A stretch of DNA of 35,715 nt from Candidatus Falkowiibacteriota bacterium (GCA_026396875.1 JAPLVY010000005.1:124595-160309), one strand, 5' to 3'. Counted from the stretch's first letter, positions 7,644 through 28,879 are shown. Notes: a model not told the origin generated them from the sequence alone. A program made the numbers and translations.

Positions 7644-8054
7644 ATGAAATCAAAGCTCTCGGTAATTATCTTCTCATTAGCCATGATAATTTTTACCCCT
7701 TTATTGACCCAGGCGGCAACTACCACTAGTGGTACCAATATTTATATTGTCAACAATAAAGACGCGAACTACGCAACCGGAGATTATCAATTGCCAGATG
7801 CTATGGCTTTGGTGGTGAGAGTGGCTAATATAATTTTGCAGATTGTTGGAGTCTTAACCTTCGCCATGTTTATCTATGGTGGTTTTATGTTTTTAATGTC
7901 TGCTGGCAACCAAAAAACCGTCTCTCAGGCTAAGAGTATCTTACTTGCCGCAGTTGTTGGGCTCATAATTGTCTTTACTAGCTACCTATTAGTTCAATTC
8001 TTTATCGGCAGCATAACTGGAAAAGCCATGAATGGTCTTCAGGTGAAAAAATAA
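7644..8054 (+). CDS. TrbC/VirB2-like pilin-family membrane protein (copy 0)
   Basis: A 136-residue protein with the hallmarks of the type IV secretion pilin-like family. It has a signal peptide ending LLTQA-AT (cleavage near 24), a short variable segment, a first membrane helix (about 62-82) ending in IYGGFMFLMSAGN, a basic turn with QAKSIL, and a second helix (about 101-124) with VVGLIIV. The ATG at 7644 comes 1 nt after the preceding stop and directly starts the signal peptide. It belongs to the same family as the seven-gene array at 10146-12958 but is the most divergent member, with FLM where the others have WM. Whether it forms filaments or a membrane channel component is unknown. Confidence 0.8.
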   Translation: MKSKLSVIIFSLAMIIFTPLLTQAATTTSGTNIYIVNNKDANYATGDYQLPDAMALVVRVANIILQIVGVLTFAMFIYGGFMFLMSAGNQKTVSQAKSILLAAVVGLIIVFTSYLLVQFFIGSITGKAMNGLQVKK

Positions 8055-10048: not shown

Positions 10049-10073
10049 CCACCAAAAACCCACAATATCCGGT

Positions 10074-10140
10074 TTGTCTTGTTTTTTGTGATATGCTACA
10101 ATAAATACATCTAATAAAAATTAAATCTAGAGAGGTGGTG
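10074..10140 (+). promoter_or_regulatory. promoter and strong RBS of the pilin array
   Basis: -35 TTGTCT (10074-10079), 17-nt spacer, extended -10 TGC TACAAT (10097-10102). An AGAGAGGTGGTG ribosome site (10129-10140) lies 5 nt before the ATG. It is the best Shine-Dalgarno site in the window, where most genes have none, and suggests high expression of the first pilin-like gene. Confidence 0.8.
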
Positions 10141-10145
10141 AAATT

Positions 10146-10529
10146 ATGAAAAAATTCTCAAAATTCTTATTCTCTTTGCTTGCTTTGTCCCTATTGGTTC
10201 TACCAGCAGTGACTTACGCTACTGTTTCTGGGAACGTTAACGACGTTGTAGGTATCACCAATGTGCAAAGTGCTAACATTGCACTTTCTCAGAATGATCC
10301 AATCGTCACCGCAACCAACCTAATCAACACCGCCATGATGTTCTTGGGTCTGCTTGCAGTAGTGATTATCTTGGTGGGTGGTTTCAAATGGATGACCGCC
10401 ATGGGTAATGATGATAACATTAAAAAAGCTAAAGCTTTGATGAGCGCCGGCGTTGTCGGCTTGGTCATTATTTTAGCCGCTTGGGGTATCGCCCGCTTTA
10501 TCGTCAACAAGCTCGCTACCACTATCTAA
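10146..10529 (+). CDS. pilin-family membrane protein, array copy 1
   Basis: First of seven tandem TrbC/VirB2-like (T4SS-pilin type) genes; 127 residues. The signal peptide ends VTYA-TV (cleavage near 25). A segment of about 30 variable residues follows. Helix 1 (about 56-81) runs into LVGGFKWMTAMGNDDNIKKA, a short basic loop, and helix 2 (about 101-122) has VVGLVIILAAWGIARF. Processed pilins of this family are small hydrophobic hairpins. A strong promoter and ribosome site precede it, and two long hairpins follow before copy 2, as would suit a major subunit. No VirB4/VirB6-like genes are in the window, so assembly machinery must lie elsewhere if it exists. Confidence 0.85.
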   Translation: MKKFSKFLFSLLALSLLVLPAVTYATVSGNVNDVVGITNVQSANIALSQNDPIVTATNLINTAMMFLGLLAVVIILVGGFKWMTAMGNDDNIKKAKALMSAGVVGLVIILAAWGIARFIVNKLATTI

Positions 10530-10534
10530 AATCC

Positions 10535-10594
10535 CGATCCTCATCAACGATGGGGATCGTTGTCCTGAAAACAAATATTTTGTTTTTGGGACAA
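10535..10594 (+). promoter_or_regulatory. two back-to-back hairpins between pilin copies 1 and 2
   Basis: Hairpin A (10535-10559) has an 11-bp stem with one G-T pair and a 3-nt loop. Hairpin B (10560-10594) directly abuts it with a 16-bp stem (two G-T pairs) and a TAT loop. Neither is followed by a T tract, so they are unlike the terminators elsewhere in the window. They may be RNA stabilisers or processing sites that set subunit ratios; this is inferred. Confidence 0.7.
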
Positions 10595-10605
10595 TGATTA
10601 AAACT

Positions 10606-10989
10606 ATGAAAAAGACTTTACTATCTCTCTTCGCTTTTTCTCTGTTGGTTTTTCCGGGAATTGCCATGGCTGGACTCAGCACAAATGATGTCGGAATTAG
10701 TGGTCCTAGCGGAATAGAAACTGGGGTTGGTGGCGGTATTAATTTGTCGTCCAGAGACCCCATTGCTGTTGCCATCAGCTTAATTAACTGGATAATCAGT
10801 TTCCTCGCTTTTGGTGCGGTGGTGATTTTGCTTATTGGTGGTTTCAAATGGATGACCGCCATGGGTAATGACGACAACATTAAGAAAGCAAAATCCATGA
10901 TGAGTGCGGGAATTATCGGCTTGGTTATTATTTTGGCGTCTTGGGGTATCGCCCGCTTTGTTGTCAGTAAACTTGCTACTAAAATTTAA
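10606..10989 (+). CDS. pilin-family membrane protein, array copy 2
   Basis: Closest paralogue of copy 1 and of equal length (127 residues) from the ATG at 10606. An ATG at 10594 is in frame but lies at the base of hairpin B, so 10606 is preferred. The signal peptide ends AMA-GL (near 22). A Gly-rich variable segment follows. Helix 1 carries LIGGFKWMTAMGNDDNIKKA and helix 2 IIGLVIILASWGIARF. A 35-nt stretch (10837-10871) is identical in DNA to copy 1 (10377-10411), while the exported segments differ strongly. It lacks a clear ribosome site of its own. Confidence 0.84.
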   Translation: MKKTLLSLFAFSLLVFPGIAMAGLSTNDVGISGPSGIETGVGGGINLSSRDPIAVAISLINWIISFLAFGAVVILLIGGFKWMTAMGNDDNIKKAKSMMSAGIIGLVIILASWGIARFVVSKLATKI

Positions 10990-11002
10990 CGAGGATTACT
11001 TT

Positions 11003-11455
11003 ATGAAACTCAAAATTTTTGCTATCGCTAGTCTCTTGACCTTAAGCTTTGCCTTCGGGTTGTCACCAGTTTTTGCTTATAATGATGCAGGACTAGAAAA
11101 TACAGTAAACAATGTTGGCCCGGCAGGAACAGCTATGAAAAACATGGGCAGTATTGATAATAGCGTGGCCTCGGTCATTGGCACTGTTTTATCATTTGTT
11201 GGTGTCGCTTTCTTAATCCTCATGATCTATGGAGGCATTTTATGGATGATTTCCCAGGGGGACACCGCTCAAATCAAAAAAGCCAAGGATATTATTATTA
11301 ATGGTGTAATCGGCTTAATCATTGTGATCTTTGCCTACGCCATTACTGCTTATATCGGCAAAACCATCACCACCCCGTCAACCCCAAGCACCCCAGTTGA
11401 TCAAACCCCGGTTAATTCTCCTAATTCTGGTGGCTATAATGGTCCAGCCAACTAA
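11003..11455 (+). CDS. pilin-family membrane protein, array copy 3
   Basis: A 150-residue family member. The signal peptide ends SPVFA-YN (near 25). The variable segment is about 30 residues, helix 1 (about 55-80) ends IYGGILWMISQG, a basic loop has KKAKDIII, and helix 2 (about 101-119) has VIGLIIVIFAYAI. Unlike copies 1 and 2 it carries a 30-residue Thr/Pro/Asn-rich tail (about 121-150). The chosen ATG has a GAGG site 9 nt upstream; in-frame codons before it overlap copy 2. Copies 3-7 are spaced by only 1-6 nt and are probably translated as a coupled unit. Confidence 0.84.
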   Translation: MKLKIFAIASLLTLSFAFGLSPVFAYNDAGLENTVNNVGPAGTAMKNMGSIDNSVASVIGTVLSFVGVAFLILMIYGGILWMISQGDTAQIKKAKDIIINGVIGLIIVIFAYAITAYIGKTITTPSTPSTPVDQTPVNSPNSGGYNGPAN

Positions 11456-11459
11456 AAAC

Positions 11460-11804
11460 ATGAATATATTTTTTGTTAAAACGGTCCACGCCTACGATTT
11501 CGGCCAAGATAGCGGTCTAAATAAAGTCGCCAACAAAATGGGTTACCCAGTTTCTGGGGCTCCATTTTCACCAGAAAATGCTGTTGCCACCGGCATCACC
11601 TATGTTTTGTCATTCCTAGGAATTATCTTCTTAATTATGGCGATTTATGCCGGTATCACCTGGATGTCCTCCGAGGGCAACGAAAAAACTGTTGAGAAAG
11701 CCAAAGATATTTTAAAAAATTCCATTATTGGCTTGATTATTGTGGCATTGGCTTACGCGATTAGTTATTTCATTCTCTCCATTTTCTCTTCTTATATTAA
11801 ATAA
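11460..11804 (+). CDS. pilin-family membrane protein, array copy 4, short N-terminus
   Basis: A 114-residue member. The N-terminus MNIFFVKTVHA-YDFG looks like a shortened signal peptide: the mature part lines up with copy 3 (AYDFGQDSGLNKVANKMG against AYNDAGLENTVNNVG). Helix 1 (about 44-68) ends IYAGITWMSSEGN, the loop has EKAKDIL, and helix 2 (about 87-110) has IIGLIIVALAYAI. An ATG 21 nt upstream (11439) is in frame, would overlap copy 3 and would not add a normal signal peptide. Whether the short leader still works is uncertain. Confidence 0.8.
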   Translation: MNIFFVKTVHAYDFGQDSGLNKVANKMGYPVSGAPFSPENAVATGITYVLSFLGIIFLIMAIYAGITWMSSEGNEKTVEKAKDILKNSIIGLIIVALAYAISYFILSIFSSYIK

Positions 11805-11805
11805 T

Positions 11806-12132
11806 ATGGCAAATTTGAAAGACGCCTTCGGGAGTAGTATTAAAACCTTTGCCGATAAAAGCGGCTACCAAACAGGAGCCGAAGTACAGCCGGAAGTTTT
11901 AGTTGGTAGTATCATTCAAACTGTCCTTCAATTTCTCGGAGTTGCTTTCTTGGGACTAGTTATCTATGGCGGCATTATTTGGATGACTGGCAGTGGTAAT
12001 GAAGATAACGTTAAGCGCGCAAAAAAAATCATTACCGCTGCAGTTATTGGACTTGTGATTGTGGTTCTAGCTTATGCAATTAGTACCTTTGTTATTCAGA
12101 ACATCTTGCAAAATAAAATTAGGAATATTTAA
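11806..12132 (+). CDS. pilin-family membrane protein, array copy 5, no signal peptide
   Basis: A 108-residue member that starts directly with a soluble-looking segment (MANLKDAFGSSIKTFADKSG) instead of a signal peptide. Helix 1 (about 33-59) ends IYGGIIWMTGSGNEDN, the loop has KRAKKIIT, and helix 2 (about 79-102) has VIGLVIVVLAYAI. The ATG follows the copy 4 stop by 1 nt; the reading frame extends upstream only inside copy 4. Insertion would rely on the two helices alone. The core is as well conserved as in the other copies, so it does not look like a decaying gene. Confidence 0.82.
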   Translation: MANLKDAFGSSIKTFADKSGYQTGAEVQPEVLVGSIIQTVLQFLGVAFLGLVIYGGIIWMTGSGNEDNVKRAKKIITAAVIGLVIVVLAYAISTFVIQNILQNKIRNI

Positions 12133-12133
12133 T

Positions 12134-12523
12134 ATGAACAAAAAAATCAAACAACTACTAGTTTTAGTTTTCTTGTCTTTACTGCTTTGTCTCCCCTACT
12201 TTGTTTTTGCTGCCAGTTCTACCCCATCGGGAGATAGCGGAGTTATTGGAAAGATGCGTGCAGTCGCCGAACCGTCATATGAAGCAGTTACTTCTGACTC
12301 TCTTTTGACTTATGCTGGCGAATTTATTGCCATTATTCTAGGTATGCTTGGCATTATCTTTGTTGGGCTAATGATTTATGCTGGCTTGAAGTGGATGATG
12401 TCCGCCGGCGATGCCGATGATATCAAAAAAGCCAAAGCTACCATTAGAATGGCGATCATTGGCTTAATTGTGACTGTATCCGCTTACGCCCTCTGGAAAT
12501 TCATTGCCGATTACTTACTATAA
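12134..12523 (+). CDS. pilin-family membrane protein, array copy 6
   Basis: A 129-residue member with a clear signal peptide ending YFVFA-AS (near 26). A segment rich in Ser/Gly/Ala follows, helix 1 (about 60-85) ends IYAGLKWMMSAGDADDIKKA, and helix 2 (about 101-125) contains IIGLIVTVSAYALWKF. The GDADDIKKA loop is shared with copy 7 and replaces the GNDDNIKKA of copies 1 and 2, so 6 and 7 form a second close pair. It starts 1 nt after the copy 5 stop. Confidence 0.84.
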   Translation: MNKKIKQLLVLVFLSLLLCLPYFVFAASSTPSGDSGVIGKMRAVAEPSYEAVTSDSLLTYAGEFIAIILGMLGIIFVGLMIYAGLKWMMSAGDADDIKKAKATIRMAIIGLIVTVSAYALWKFIADYLL

Positions 12524-12529
12524 AATTAT

Positions 12530-12958
12530 ATGAAAAAGTTATTTTTTGTTATTTTTCTCCTATCCCTAATGTTGCTTGGGTTTAGCGCCCAAGCGAGGGT
12601 TTTATCTCCTGAATTAAAAAGTAATTTACAGGATAATACCACACAGTTCAACGCCTCCGCTGGATTTGGTGACAATAACATCCTCGGGGTAGTACATTTT
12701 GTTATTACTGGACTGCTCGGACTATTGGCAATAATCTTTCTTGCTTACACAATCTATGCCGGCTTCAAGTGGATGACTGCCGCTGGAGATGCCGATGATA
12801 TCAAGAAGGCACAGGCAACTCTCCGAACCTCGATTATTGGCTTGATTATCGTTCTGGGATCCTATGGAATTACTTATTTAGTGTTTAGCAATATGCCCTT
12901 TGAGGGCGTCGCTCCTTCCTCTCAGGATGCCCCAGCTGGACCAGTTACCAGCGGCTAA
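12530..12958 (+). CDS. pilin-family membrane protein, array copy 7
   Basis: The last array member, 142 residues. The signal peptide ends FSAQA-RV (near 22). Helix 1 (about 52-77) ends IYAGFKWMTAAGDADDIKKA. Helix 2 (about 95-117) has IIGLIIVLGSYGITY and is followed by a C-terminal tail of about 20 residues rich in Pro/Ser/Ala/Gly. It closes the transcript: an intrinsic terminator lies about 20 nt downstream. Like copy 3 it has an extra tail beyond helix 2, which in a hairpin topology would face the same side as the mature N-terminus. Confidence 0.84.
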   Translation: MKKLFFVIFLLSLMLLGFSAQARVLSPELKSNLQDNTTQFNASAGFGDNNILGVVHFVITGLLGLLAIIFLAYTIYAGFKWMTAAGDADDIKKAQATLRTSIIGLIIVLGSYGITYLVFSNMPFEGVAPSSQDAPAGPVTSG

Positions 12959-13029: not shown

Positions 13030-13887
13030 TTACCAGAAAGTTGGTGCTACTGCCCAGCCGCTGTAATTTTTACCATCTATACTGTGCATTTGCAGACCAA
13101 CGGTGATTTTTTGGCCGACAATACAGCGACGATTGGATAAATCAACAATATCACAGAGATATTGCTGAGGAAGAACGGAAACAACCATGCTGCTGTTTGG
13201 AGCAAGAACAAAAGATCTGTTGCCCTCCACGCCTTTCAGTGTAAAACTGCGTTCATGAGTTTTTGACTCATTTTTGAGTAATACCTGATAAACCGTAGAG
13301 TCGGTTTTTTCCTTCTTTAGAAGCTTTAGGGCTTCGCTTTGAAGTTCCTGCTTGTAGTTCAGGTCACCGGTTTTTTCTTTCACATCCAAACCATTGTAGC
13401 GTAGGGTCTTTTCCCTAAAACCGACTTCGGTTGGAGTGTCGGTGTTGGTGGTAGCTCTACTTAAAATTAATTTCTTCTGAGCTACCAGCTGATTCAGTTG
13501 AAAATCTTCATCATTGAAGTTTTCAACAGCAGAGGTGCTGTCAAAATCCAATTTCTGAAATTTCTTTTGATTTTCCTGAAGTTGAGCTTCCATCTTAGCC
13601 AAATCCCTCGTTTCTTTAAGAGTTAAGCCAATAAGATTTGAGTCGGCATCCAACTCAGCATTTTTTAAGTTCAAACTATTAATTTGAGCTTTTAATTGTC
13701 TGGTGGAACTGTTTAAACCGACTACTTCGACAATTTTGTCTTGAGCTTTTTTAACTTTAATCCGTTGTTCACGAATCTGATTGTTTAAGATAGAGATTTG
13801 CTCATTGTCTTGGATGGTTAATTGGCAAAATGCTACGGCTGGAGCAATTATCATTGCTACTATGGCCAAAATGATGATTTTCTTCAT
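13030..13887 (-). CDS. exported coiled-coil protein, unknown function
   Basis: Not recognised. The 285-residue product has a signal peptide (MKKIIILAIVAMIIAPAVA), then a Gln/Asn/Leu-rich region of about 25-125 with coiled-coil character (ISILNNQIREQRIKVKKAQ; LAKMEAQLQENQKKFQ). A linker and a beta-rich C-terminal part (about 195-285) follow, with two Cys (LCDIVDLSNRRCIVG) that could form a disulfide. It is probably a secreted or envelope-bound structural protein. Its promoter is a near-perfect consensus with a leader of about 90 nt, so it may be strongly expressed. It is divergent from the 3D-domain gene. Confidence 0.7.
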   Translation of the reverse strand: MKKIIILAIVAMIIAPAVAFCQLTIQDNEQISILNNQIREQRIKVKKAQDKIVEVVGLNSSTRQLKAQINSLNLKNAELDADSNLIGLTLKETRDLAKMEAQLQENQKKFQKLDFDSTSAVENFNDEDFQLNQLVAQKKLILSRATTNTDTPTEVGFREKTLRYNGLDVKEKTGDLNYKQELQSEALKLLKKEKTDSTVYQVLLKNESKTHERSFTLKGVEGNRSFVLAPNSSMVVSVLPQQYLCDIVDLSNRRCIVGQKITVGLQMHSIDGKNYSGWAVAPTFW

Positions 13888-14135: not shown

Positions 14136-14708
14136 ATGAAAACAATTATCAATCCTTCCGAGGGTTCTATACCCCTCCCTACAATGAAAAACCTGGGTAA
14201 GAGAATTTTGGCCTTCTTGGTGGTCACCCTCGTTTTTCAATTCATTTTATTCCCTATGCCGGCTCTTGCCGACGAAGCTGTCGCTCAAGCAGAGGCCGCT
14301 CAAAGCAACACTATTAATAGTATTGATCTAGCTAATATCAAGGCTGATGCTAGCACTCCGACTCTTGATATCAACCATCTTCCCCAGGAACCAGAATATA
14401 AAGTCATCAGCACTAGCGTTCACAAAATGACCGCTTATAACTCCGAAGTCGGTCAAACCGATAATTCTCCATGTATTACAGCTAACGGCTTCAATGTCTG
14501 TGAACACGGTACCGAAGATACGGTTGCTGCCAACTTTTTAAAGATGGGCACCAAGGTCCGTATTCCAGAATTATTTGGTGATCGTGTGTTTACTGTTCGT
14601 GATCGTATGAACGCTCGTCACGCTACCCGCGTCGACGTTTGGATGAAGGACCGCTCAAGCGCTATGAAGTTTGGTGTGAAGGTTGCTAAAATCGAGGTCT
14701 TAGAGTAA
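14136..14708 (+). CDS. exported 3D-domain protein (double-psi beta-barrel, MltA/RlpA-like)
   Basis: The 3D domain takes its name from three conserved Asp and is related to the barrel of lytic transglycosylases such as MltA and of resuscitation-promoting factors; such proteins act on or near peptidoglycan. Of 190 residues, about 17-45 form a signal peptide (MKNLGKRILAFLVV to PALA). A low-complexity linker follows, then the domain (about 90-190): HKMTAYNSEVGQTDNSPCIT, VAANFLKMGTKVRIPE, FTVRDRMNARHATRVDVWM and FGVKVAKIEVLE. The ATG at 14184 (Met17) gives a more standard signal peptide and is an alternative start. A promoter and a terminator-like leader hairpin precede it. Confidence 0.85.
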   Translation: MKTIINPSEGSIPLPTMKNLGKRILAFLVVTLVFQFILFPMPALADEAVAQAEAAQSNTINSIDLANIKADASTPTLDINHLPQEPEYKVISTSVHKMTAYNSEVGQTDNSPCITANGFNVCEHGTEDTVAANFLKMGTKVRIPELFGDRVFTVRDRMNARHATRVDVWMKDRSSAMKFGVKVAKIEVLE

Positions 14709-26062: not shown

Positions 26063-26091
26063 TTGTGGAAAAGTAGTGAATTGAATATAAT
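26063..26091 (+). promoter_or_regulatory. dnaA promoter
   Basis: -35 TTGTGG (26063-26068), 17-nt spacer, -10 TATAAT (26086-26091). The predicted start is about 26098, 19 nt before the ATG. Confidence 0.6.
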
Positions 26092-26116
26092 AGTTTTAGA
26101 TAATATCAAAGCAAAT

Positions 26117-27511
26117 ATGACCAACGAACAAATTTGGCAAGCGGTCTTGGGCGAGATGGAAATTAGTCTTTCAAAGGCAAATTTCGTAACCTGGTTTAAA
26201 GATACTTTTATTTCCTCTTTCTCTGAGGAGCTAGTTGTGGTTGGCGTACCAAATGCCTTTGTAAAAAAATGGCTAGAGGAGAAATATCACAAGAATATCC
26301 TGAGTGCTCTAGAAAAAGTTACCCAACAAAGAATTATTAAAATTGAGTATCACCTAGAAAATAAAAAACAATCGAACAGTAATCAACACACACAACCAAT
26401 AGTTAATCAGCCGGCGCCAACAAACACTCAAATCGAAGAAAGCCCAAGAGAAAACACTGCTACAAAAAATGTCTATAATCGTTTTGGTCTAAACCCTAAA
26501 TATGTTTTTGAAAATTTTGTCGTTGGCAAAAACAATGAGTTGGCATACGCAGCTTGCCAAGCGGTAGTAAGAAACCTTGGTAAGGCCTATAATCCATTAT
26601 TCATTTATGGCGGCGTTGGTTTGGGTAAAACCCACCTTCTACAGGCCATTGGCAATGAGGCCTCTAAGTTCACTGACAAAATTCTTTACACCACTAGTGA
26701 GAAGTTTACAAACAATTATATCCAAGCTGTTCAAACCGGAAAAGGAAAAGATTTTAAAAATCTATACCGCAACGTTGACTTGCTCCTGGTTGATGATGTT
26801 CAGTTTATGGGTGGAAAAGATGGTACTCAAGAAGAGTTTTTCCACACCTTCAACGAACTACAGCAAGGAAACAAACAAATAATTCTCACCTCTGACCGCC
26901 CACCAAAATCAATTCCAGCAATCGAGAAAAGACTAATATCCCGCTTTGAGTCGGGAATGGTTGCTGATGTTGGTAAGCCAGACATTGAAACCAAACTGGC
27001 TATTCTAGAGAGAAAAGCGGAGGAAAAGGGGTTCCCATTAGATAAAGACGTGCTATCTTTCATTGCCAACCACATCCAAAACAATATTCGAGAACTTGAG
27101 GGAGCTCTTAATCGAGTAATAGTTCACCACCAACTAAAAAATAGCACCCCAACAATTAGAAGCGTAAAGGAGGTGTTAAGTGATTTGATTGCTAACATTC
27201 AACTGAAGTCTCTAACCCCAAAAGAGATTATCGAAACCGTTGCTAAATTCTATGATATTTCATACAAGGATATTACGGGAAATAGCAGGAAGAAGGAGTT
27301 GGTTTGGCCAAGACAAATTTCTATTTATTTAATAAGAGAAGAGTTGAACACCTCGTACCCAACCATTGGACAAGAGCTTGGTGGTCGTGATCACACCACA
27401 GCAATGCACGCCTACAATAAGATTAATCAAGAGGTTAAGGAAATGGAAAATGAAAGAGTTAAGCAAGAAATTGAGTCCATTAAACAATTACTTGCCGGAT
27501 CCGTCTATTAA
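26117..27511 (+). CDS. dnaA: chromosomal replication initiator protein DnaA
   Basis: DnaA-ATP binds DnaA boxes, opens the origin and loads the helicase. From ATG 26117 there are 464 residues. Domain I (about 1-80) has IWQAVLGEMEISLSKANFVT and TWFKD. A polar Asn/Gln/Pro-rich linker (domain II) spans about 82-115. Domain III has Walker A GGVGLGKTHLL (165-175), Walker B DLLLVDDVQF (221-230) and the ISRFESGMVADV region. Domain IV ends with the DnaA signature GGRDHTTAMHAYNKI. The frame opens 18 codons earlier, but the family N-terminus and the promoter both point to 26117. Its own target sites are proposed at 27570, 27693 and 14016. Confidence 0.97.
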   Translation: MTNEQIWQAVLGEMEISLSKANFVTWFKDTFISSFSEELVVVGVPNAFVKKWLEEKYHKNILSALEKVTQQRIIKIEYHLENKKQSNSNQHTQPIVNQPAPTNTQIEESPRENTATKNVYNRFGLNPKYVFENFVVGKNNELAYAACQAVVRNLGKAYNPLFIYGGVGLGKTHLLQAIGNEASKFTDKILYTTSEKFTNNYIQAVQTGKGKDFKNLYRNVDLLLVDDVQFMGGKDGTQEEFFHTFNELQQGNKQIILTSDRPPKSIPAIEKRLISRFESGMVADVGKPDIETKLAILERKAEEKGFPLDKDVLSFIANHIQNNIRELEGALNRVIVHHQLKNSTPTIRSVKEVLSDLIANIQLKSLTPKEIIETVAKFYDISYKDITGNSRKKELVWPRQISIYLIREELNTSYPTIGQELGGRDHTTAMHAYNKINQEVKEMENERVKQEIESIKQLLAGSVY

Positions 27512-27748
27512 TTTCTGTTGAAAAGTTGTTAATTGCTTGTTGCTATCCTGTGTCTAGTAAATGATAAAATGTGAATAAGTTTCCATAGCCCACAGTTCTT
27601 AACAAGTTGTTATTTTTTCCCCACCGCCGTCACACAACAGTATTAACAGGTGTTTTGATTTAATGTAAAACAAAAAATAAACAAATAAAAACTTATCCAC
27701 TCGCTTATTATTATTATTGTTTTAAAGTATATAAATTATTAATATAAT
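27512..27748. other. oriC: candidate origin of replication (oriC)
   Basis: The AT-rich gap between dnaA and dnaN. A perfect DnaA box on the minus strand (TTATTCACA) lies at 27570-27578 and a one-mismatch box (TTATCCACT) at 27693-27701. The latter is followed by a 3-nt CGC spacer and four TTA triplets (27705-27716), which read as 3'-AAT-5' DnaA-trios on the other strand. A run of A/T (27717-27748) that could unwind follows. Box number is low compared with well-studied origins. Confidence 0.6.
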
Positions 27749-28879
27749 ATGAAGTTCATTATCCGGAGAGAAAATTTAAAAAAGGGATTATCTATAGTTG
27801 GACACATAACCACAAAAAGTATTAATCTCCCCATACTAAATAACGTACTCATTAAGGCTAACAGTAGTGGTGTAGAGTTGGTGAGCACTAATTTGGAAAT
27901 TGGTATCGTTCATCGTCTTAGGGGTAAGGTTGAGGAGGACGGAGAGTTTACGGTGGACTCCAAGATGGTTTCGGAATATGTTAATTTTTTAGCTGGAGAT
28001 AATGTTGATATTTCTGAAAGTAACGAGGAGTTAAAAATAGAATGCGATAACTATAAAACAAAAATAAAGGGAGAGAATGCCAAGGAGTTTCCACTTATCC
28101 CCACGTTGTCTGGGGAAAACTTCTGTTTGTGTGATATCGAAGACTTAAAGCGGGCGCTTTCTCGCGTTATTTTTGCGGTTTCCACTAATGAAAACAGAAT
28201 TGAGCTGTCTGGGGTGTTGTTTAGTTTTTTTGGATCAAGACTAGTTCTTGCTTCCACGGACAGCTATCGCTTAGCGGAAAAAGAAATTACCATTGATTGG
28301 CGCGGTGTGCCAATTGAAGATCAGAAATTCATTGTTCCAGCAAAAACCATTCAAGAGTTTTTAAGAATGATTTCTAATTTTTCTGAATCCGACTCTTCTG
28401 AAGAAAAAAACAATCAGGTAAAAATATTTATCTCTGATAACCAAATTATGTTCTCGGTTGGTTCAACAGATTTGGTTTCTCGTTTAATTAATGGAAACTT
28501 TCCGGACTACAGACAGATAGTTCCTGAAAAATTTAATACCAGTGTAATACTAAGTCGCGGCGAATTGTTGCGCGCGGTAAAGGCAGCATCAATTTTTTCT
28601 AAAAGTGGAATTAATGATGTTGGTTTGGAATTTAAGGGCGACAAACTTGTTGTTTATTCTTCTTCGGGGCAAAGTGGCGAAAGTAGAATTGAGCTTTCCT
28701 GTGAAAAAAATGGTAATGATAATGAAATTACGGTCAATTTTCGCTACTTATTAGATGGTTTAAATAATATTGGTGACGAGGAGATAAATTTAAAAGTTAT
28801 TAGTGATAATTCTCCCTGCATGTTGTCGCCAACGAAGGAAGAAAATTATTTTTATATCGTGATGCCAATTAGGCAATAA
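27749..28879 (+). CDS. dnaN: DNA polymerase III beta sliding clamp
   Basis: The beta clamp rings DNA and tethers the replicative polymerase and other factors. It has 376 residues in three repeated clamp folds: MKFIIRRENLKKGLSIVGHI opens domain 1, LPILNNVLIKANSSGVELVS TNLEIGI follows, SGVLFSFFGSRLVLASTDSY RLA marks domain 2, and the family end FYIVMPIRQ (cleft region PMR-like) closes domain 3. The TATAAT touching the ATG is too close to be its promoter; expression may come from dnaA or from a weak TATATAAA element around 27727. A bidirectional terminator follows. recF, which usually comes next, is missing. Confidence 0.96.
   Translation: MKFIIRRENLKKGLSIVGHITTKSINLPILNNVLIKANSSGVELVSTNLEIGIVHRLRGKVEEDGEFTVDSKMVSEYVNFLAGDNVDISESNEELKIECDNYKTKIKGENAKEFPLIPTLSGENFCLCDIEDLKRALSRVIFAVSTNENRIELSGVLFSFFGSRLVLASTDSYRLAEKEITIDWRGVPIEDQKFIVPAKTIQEFLRMISNFSESDSSEEKNNQVKIFISDNQIMFSVGSTDLVSRLINGNFPDYRQIVPEKFNTSVILSRGELLRAVKAASIFSKSGINDVGLEFKGDKLVVYSSSGQSGESRIELSCEKNGNDNEITVNFRYLLDGLNNIGDEEINLKVISDNSPCMLSPTKEENYFYIVMPIRQ

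Follow-up and report, generated by a model that had tools for sequence, protein, structure and literature searches.

Ordered pilin classes with a distinct first member in a patescibacterial array, a candidate subunit operon of a type IV secretion system

Seven small genes lie in a row on the plus strand, at positions 10146 to 12958 of a 35,715-nucleotide stretch of DNA (the window) from a Candidatus Falkowbacteria-type patescibacterium. Its genome assembly has 10 contigs and 767 kb in total, and the bacterium is tiny and probably host-dependent. An initial reading of the DNA alone, here called the original prediction, had described seven consecutive pilin-like genes and an eighth upstream. All eight open reading frames (ORFs) are real (Table 1). 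Their products match the Pfam family T4SS_pilin, PF18895, of type IV secretion system (T4SS) pilins, with E values from 6e-10 to 1.4e-5. The curated gathering cut-off of this family is 26.6 bits, and seven of the eight pass it at the protein level. Copy 7 scores 25.5 bits as a protein and 27.6 bits in a search of the genome.

The shared core is also as predicted (YxGxxWM, G-N/D-x-D, KKAK, IIGLIIV). In the alignment G, G, A and GL are invariant and the first motif reads YGGxxWM. Alignment, hydropathy and structure model agree on the layout of the family, two hydrophobic helices with a short basic loop. The proposed kinship to TrbC/VirB2 holds at the level of PF18895, which the suggested profile search against T4SS pilin families recovered, but not for the TrbC/VirB2 model PF04956. 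No window pilin passes the cut-off of that model, and only copy 6 matches it (15.7 bits against 27.9). Two copies, 6 and 7, exceed the curated cut-off of NCBIfam NF045849, and the other copies are weak matches. A sequence profile built from the eight window copies found no solved pilin. Apart from copy 2, the copies are 20-29% identical to copy 1. Signal peptides differ among them, as foreseen, but copies 4 and 5 (11460-12132) have a very short one or none in this genus; orthologs elsewhere carry one. The single promoter was likewise borne out in part: copy 1 is preceded by one promoter-like site and a strong Shine–Dalgarno (SD) sequence, but two strong stem-loops part it from the rest.

Table 1. 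Pilin genes and associated signals in the window (MFE, minimum free energy)
Feature	Position	Strand	Observations
Eighth pilin, separate class S	7644..8054	+	PF18895 29.5 bits; class profile; synteny
Promoter-like site and SD of first pilin	10071..10145	+	TTGTCT-17-TACAAT, TG before -10; near-consensus extended SD AGAGGTGGTGA
Pilin copy 1, class P1 (P1a)	10146..10529	+	PF18895 38.9 bits; signal peptide and two-helix hairpin; probable major pilin
Intercistronic stem-loops, P1a to next gene	10530..10605	+	MFE -30.7, z -5.9, 0/200 shuffles
Pilin copy 2, class P1 (P1b)	10606..10989 (alternative start 10594)	+	PF18895; recent duplicate of copy 1, 59% identical
Pilin copy 3, class P2	11003..11455	+	PF18895; class profile and tree; Pro/Ser/Gly-rich C-terminal tail
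Pilin copy 4, class P3	11460..11804	+	PF18895; YDFxxxSGL motif; N-terminal signal very short
Pilin copy 5, class P4	11806..12132	+	PF18895; LKDAF motif; no signal peptide in window's genus
Pilin copy 6, class P5	12134..12523	+	PF18895; over NF045849 cut-off
Pilin copy 7, class P6	12530..12958	+	PF18895; over NF045849 cut-off

The order of these genes is shared by relatives. All 26 searched genomes of the order, our own counted, have 6-16 PF18895 matches, and arrays of six to eight genes from 17 genomes (the window counted) are collinear. In a tree of the hairpins, genes cluster largely by array position, not by genome. For the ten genomes with exactly six-gene arrays, the tree requires 11 position changes, where the possible minimum is 5; 2000 within-genome shuffles of the same ten genomes gave 38.9 on average and never fewer than 30. 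We made class profiles for the six array positions, P1 to P6, and for the single upstream gene, S. The position profiles were trained on eight other genomes, among which two pairs share a genus, and the window was excluded. When each gene was tested with its own genome left out, 48/48 were classified correctly. The unseen window genes were read, in order, as P1-P1-P2-P3-P4-P5-P6. Scores were 132 and 109 for P1 in copies 1 and 2 (next 76 and 71), 105 for P2 in copy 3 (98 for P3), 129 for P3 in copy 4 (111 for P4), 110 for P4 in copy 5 (104 for P3), 120 for P5 in copy 6 (next 77) and 119 for P6 in copy 7 (next 88). The eighth gene scored 117 for S (next 57), and relatives also have a class S pilin a few kb upstream of the array.

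Class and order are thus conserved between species and between genera where they were compared. Exceptions are an aberrant fourth array gene in one relative (G006) and weak class scores for the middle genes of larger arrays in other families. Additional array genes are often P1 duplicates, that of the window included, and P1 has been duplicated in several lineages; the duplication in the window's genus is recent. In one relative (G002), a second P1 gene heads another contig (L024 start, L025 start), and the P1 pair of this genus was probably split between contigs by assembly. Judged by sequence comparison, the array is a set of six orthologous classes in a fixed order, and probably no bank of variants. 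The six classes are most likely not interchangeable.

P1 differs from the other classes in its signals. A near-consensus Shine–Dalgarno sequence, AGAAAGGTGGTGA, is kept before P1 in most relatives, and the window version is AGAGGTGGTGA. An SD-like stretch before the first pilin, AGAAAGGTGGTGAATT, is conserved in most relatives. The gap after P1 is usually 64-306 bases long and holds strong stem-loops, whereas most other array gaps are shorter than 30 bases. Counterparts of the window's stem-loops stand behind P1 in almost all relatives. In nine of ten stem-loop regions tested, the fold beats every one of 200 shuffles, with z from -5.9 to -8.6, and the remaining one has a z of -1.9. The P1 hairpin is also the most conserved of the classes (67% identity against 44-58%). 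Because of its near-consensus Shine–Dalgarno sequence, its strong 3' stem-loops and its slowly changing hairpin, P1 looks like the major pilin, with P2 to P6 as minor subunits. Partial termination or 3' protection at the stem-loops may yield an excess of P1.

The pilin hairpin is also found at the head of much larger proteins. A profile search of the genome gave 15 PF18895 matches, eight in the window and seven elsewhere: two at the N-termini of giant proteins, two in single genes and three in proteins of 372-463 amino acids. The giant proteins (894 and 1728 amino acids) are encoded by adjacent genes on contig C8 (L020:4475-12358). Each has an N-terminal signal peptide, a P1-type hairpin and then ectodomains, which are Big_5 and TIG in this genome. 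Such an adjacent pair (about 900 and 1500-2800 amino acids) occurs in most relatives examined. With the class profiles, 27 of 28 giant-protein hairpins from relatives were best assigned to P1, and in the tree these hairpins branch beside the array P1 genes. A literature search of partial coverage found no published description of giant pilin-hairpin proteins. With a pilin at their head, they are specific candidates for the part by which such a structure could carry adhesins. On contig C9 (L021:6597-7988), the pilin hairpin of one of the three 372-463-amino-acid proteins is joined to a C-terminal VanY-type D,D-carboxypeptidase domain, and two neighbours join one to Cys-rich ectodomains. Since VanY and Ig-like domains are attached at the C-terminus of the hairpin, this end would lie outside.

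No gene for a secretion ATPase or channel was noted in the window by the original prediction. For the scanned genes this is correct, yet a VirB4 operon exists elsewhere in the genome, on a different contig (C7), with VirB6-like, PrgI, TrsD-like, VirB4, 205-amino-acid and DsbA-like proteins. VirB4 scores 349.7 bits with NF045971 (cut-off 325) and matches proteins of Candidatus Falkowbacteria and related Patescibacteria at up to 94%. PrgI is over the cut-off of PF12666 (35.8 bits), and the TrsD-like protein is below that of NF041427 (29.3 bits, cut-off 200). The VirB6-like protein, polytopic and 906 amino acids long, is so named by size and topology only; it has no Pfam or NCBIfam profile match. 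The 205-amino-acid membrane protein (L019:9336-9953) lies directly downstream of VirB4 and is recognized by neither Pfam nor NCBIfam. In the fetched loci of relatives it has 67 blastp matches, adjoining VirB4. A structure model of an ortholog, from 51 sequences (mean predicted local distance difference test, pLDDT, 87.8), shows a membrane helix and an NTF2-like domain. Its best solved matches are VirB8 proteins: CagV with an E value of 1.9e-5, and DotI, TraE and Brucella VirB8 with Z of 14-15 and root-mean-square deviations of 2.3-2.8 over 115-126 residues. By its predicted structure this is a VirB8-fold protein; VirB8 has been described as scarce in Patescibacteria (PMC12102498). A search for VirB4, VirB6 and VirB8, also proposed at the outset, thus returned VirB4 by profile, VirB8 by fold and a VirB6-like candidate. 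The exported DsbA/thioredoxin-like protein of the operon (L019:8474-9313) could serve the Cys-rich pilin-fusion proteins. Because the VirB4 operon and the VirB8-fold protein are present on C7, a T4SS apparatus is encoded in the genome, though outside the window. VirB4 and PrgI occur together, with TrsD-like and VirB8-fold proteins, as in monoderm (FATA-type) T4SSs.

Pilins and VirB4 also tend to be absent from the same genomes. Among 192 fairly complete genomes across the phylum, 187 have a pilin and 181 have VirB4 over the cut-off. VirB4 is absent from three of the five pilin-free genomes and from 8 of the 187 pilin-bearing ones (Fisher p 0.0013). Pilin, VirB4 over the cut-off and PrgI are all missing from G051, a single-contig genome, and all present in G030 and G150 of the same genus. 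In chromosome CP066698.1, about 226 kb separate the array from VirB4. Elsewhere in the phylum, 4 of 20 arrays have a VirB4 match within the same 16-17 kb. In the window, dnaA and dnaN lie at 26063-28879, about 13-14 kb downstream of the array, which therefore is near the likely replication origin. Of seven relatives in which array and dnaA could be placed on a single contig, four have them about 12-17 kb apart (one of these if its contig is taken as circular) and three have them 43-60 kb apart. T4SS genes lie near dnaA in some Patescibacteria (PMC12102498). Adjoining the array are two exported-looking proteins without a Pfam match, at 13030-13887 (minus strand) and 14136-14708 (plus strand).

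At the level of sequence, the pilin family, the gene order, the orthology, the special signals of P1 and the co-occurrence with VirB4 are established. We consider it probable that the array is the pilin-subunit operon of a chromosomal, VirB4-driven, monoderm/FATA-like T4SS whose product is a surface structure of mixed subunits for host contact. We infer filament assembly, the major and minor roles and the contact function from these features. Pilins that have a signal peptide would take the Sec route and end up as hairpins of N-out/C-out topology, whose basic KKAK loop is on the inner side. Their extraction and assembly would fall to VirB4 together with the VirB6-like and VirB8-like proteins. 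P1 would be made in excess as the major subunit, by way of its own strong ribosome site and the 3' stem-loops, and P2 to P6 would be minor subunits at defined places, such as base, tip or channel ring. The two giant P1-hairpin proteins may co-assemble and display their large ectodomains for contact with host cells. More tentatively, and with less than even confidence, we propose a hetero-polymeric T4SS pilus of one major and five minor pilins in set places, onto which giant adhesin-like proteins, and perhaps a peptidoglycan enzyme too, are loaded by means of the pilin hairpin that they bear.

Several observations weigh against assigning the array to such a structure. The nearest machines, Gram-positive conjugation systems, normally have no pilus (PMC12102498, PMC10633639). 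The array and VirB4 are unlinked here, on different contigs, and the fetched flanks of 77 of 80 VirB4 loci of relatives contain no pilin match. Two pilin-free genomes retain VirB4. In the window, the class margins are narrow for copy 3 (P2) and copy 5 (P4), and P1 to P6 cannot be extended across the phylum: beyond the taxonomic class, profile scores drop together and the classes blur. The structure model of copy 1 is weak (mean pLDDT 66), and Foldseek and VIA-align matched it to generic helical hairpins only, with no significant pilin match.

The original prediction had offered a mixed-subunit filament, a set of alternative subunits or a membrane complex of different hairpins. The first and the last both stand, with the class of copy 1 as the likely major subunit. 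In the membrane complex, the hairpins would assemble within the cytoplasmic membrane into a heteromeric ring or channel, as an inner T4SS component that lacks an extended filament. All the pilins are two-helix membrane hairpins, a fixed set of six classes would fit a filament no better than a closed ring, the signal peptide of copies 4 and 5 is minimal or missing, and monoderm T4SSs usually lack pili (PMC12102498). We nevertheless regard the ring as unlikely. P1 looks over-expressed next to the other classes, is the class that undergoes duplication and heads giant ectodomain proteins, and for these reasons a many-copy surface polymer fits better. Alternative subunits are disfavoured because order and classes are fixed across genera. 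That the arrays of Patescibacteria are banks of pilins that are alternative or vary antigenically, as proposed for the VirB2 arrays of Anaplasma and Bartonella, has been suggested (PMC12102498), and the P1 duplicates of several lineages would suit such a bank. So would the exported N-terminal segments, which are far more variable across relatives than the hairpins (19-34% identity in all classes against 44-67%). However, class and order are kept across genera and families with no turnover, and the genes stand in a single row on one strand without silent cassettes, which makes such a bank quite improbable. It is more doubtful still that the hairpins chiefly serve as anchors or scaffolds in the membrane and have nothing to do with secretion, with pilin as a family label only: fusions to a VanY-type peptidase and large ectodomains would work as simple anchors and this order shows no linkage of array and VirB4, but pilin and VirB4 are jointly absent, they are linked elsewhere in the phylum, and an essential pilin array sits inside a saccharibacterial T4SS cluster (PMC10633639).

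The surface-structure operon that we favour belongs to a type of array already known in the phylum. Patescibacteria have 441 published VirB2 arrays of 2-11 genes in 383 assemblies, with a mean identity of 25%; they are frequently near virB4, though this is not required (PMC12102498). Since such arrays are common, seven pilins in a row are less surprising than the original prediction held. The criterion of that survey, at least two tandem PF18895 genes and VirB4 in the genome, describes this genome, with seven in tandem and VirB4 on C7. The likeness extends to low mutual identity, although the two P1 copies of the window, at 59%, are just over the published maximum of 54%. What is new is that the genes form six orthologous classes in a set order, with P1 standing apart, here far from VirB4. 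Drawing on Bartonella and Anaplasma, the survey suggested that variation provides host-range versatility; classes that are fixed and ordered speak rather for a machine of distinct parts. With P1 named as the likely major subunit, the class profiles make this idea testable.

Patescibacteria live on other microbes. In those associated with methanogens, the domains predicted for highly expressed genes with signal peptides include T4SS pilins (PMC10936435). The saccharibacterium Ca. Southlakia epibionticum has an essential series of pilins within its T4SS cluster (PMC10633639), counted as six (PMC12857230), and this system has been described as the first T4SS essential for the survival of its own bearer (PMC10633639, PMC12857230). 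The two arrays are alike as rows of divergent VirB2-like pilins with a monoderm-type T4SS, a likeness seen at the level of the array. The saccharibacterial pilins lie inside the T4SS gene cluster, whereas those of the window are at a separate locus.

Other known systems are more distant. NF045849 describes a pilin-like protein of mycoplasma integrative and conjugative elements (Mbov_0395/MMCAP2_0565); it models one conjugal-transfer protein, and copies 6 and 7 pass its cut-off. The VirB2/TrbC conjugative pilins (PF04956) share the signal peptide, two-helix hairpin and basic loop, but are of one class, whereas the window has several. Anaplasma and Bartonella VirB2 paralogues resemble the array in their tandem genes and variable exposed segments (PMC3556328, PMC12857230). 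In Anaplasma, however, copy number varies between strains of one species, while the array studied here keeps its classes and their order from genus to genus.

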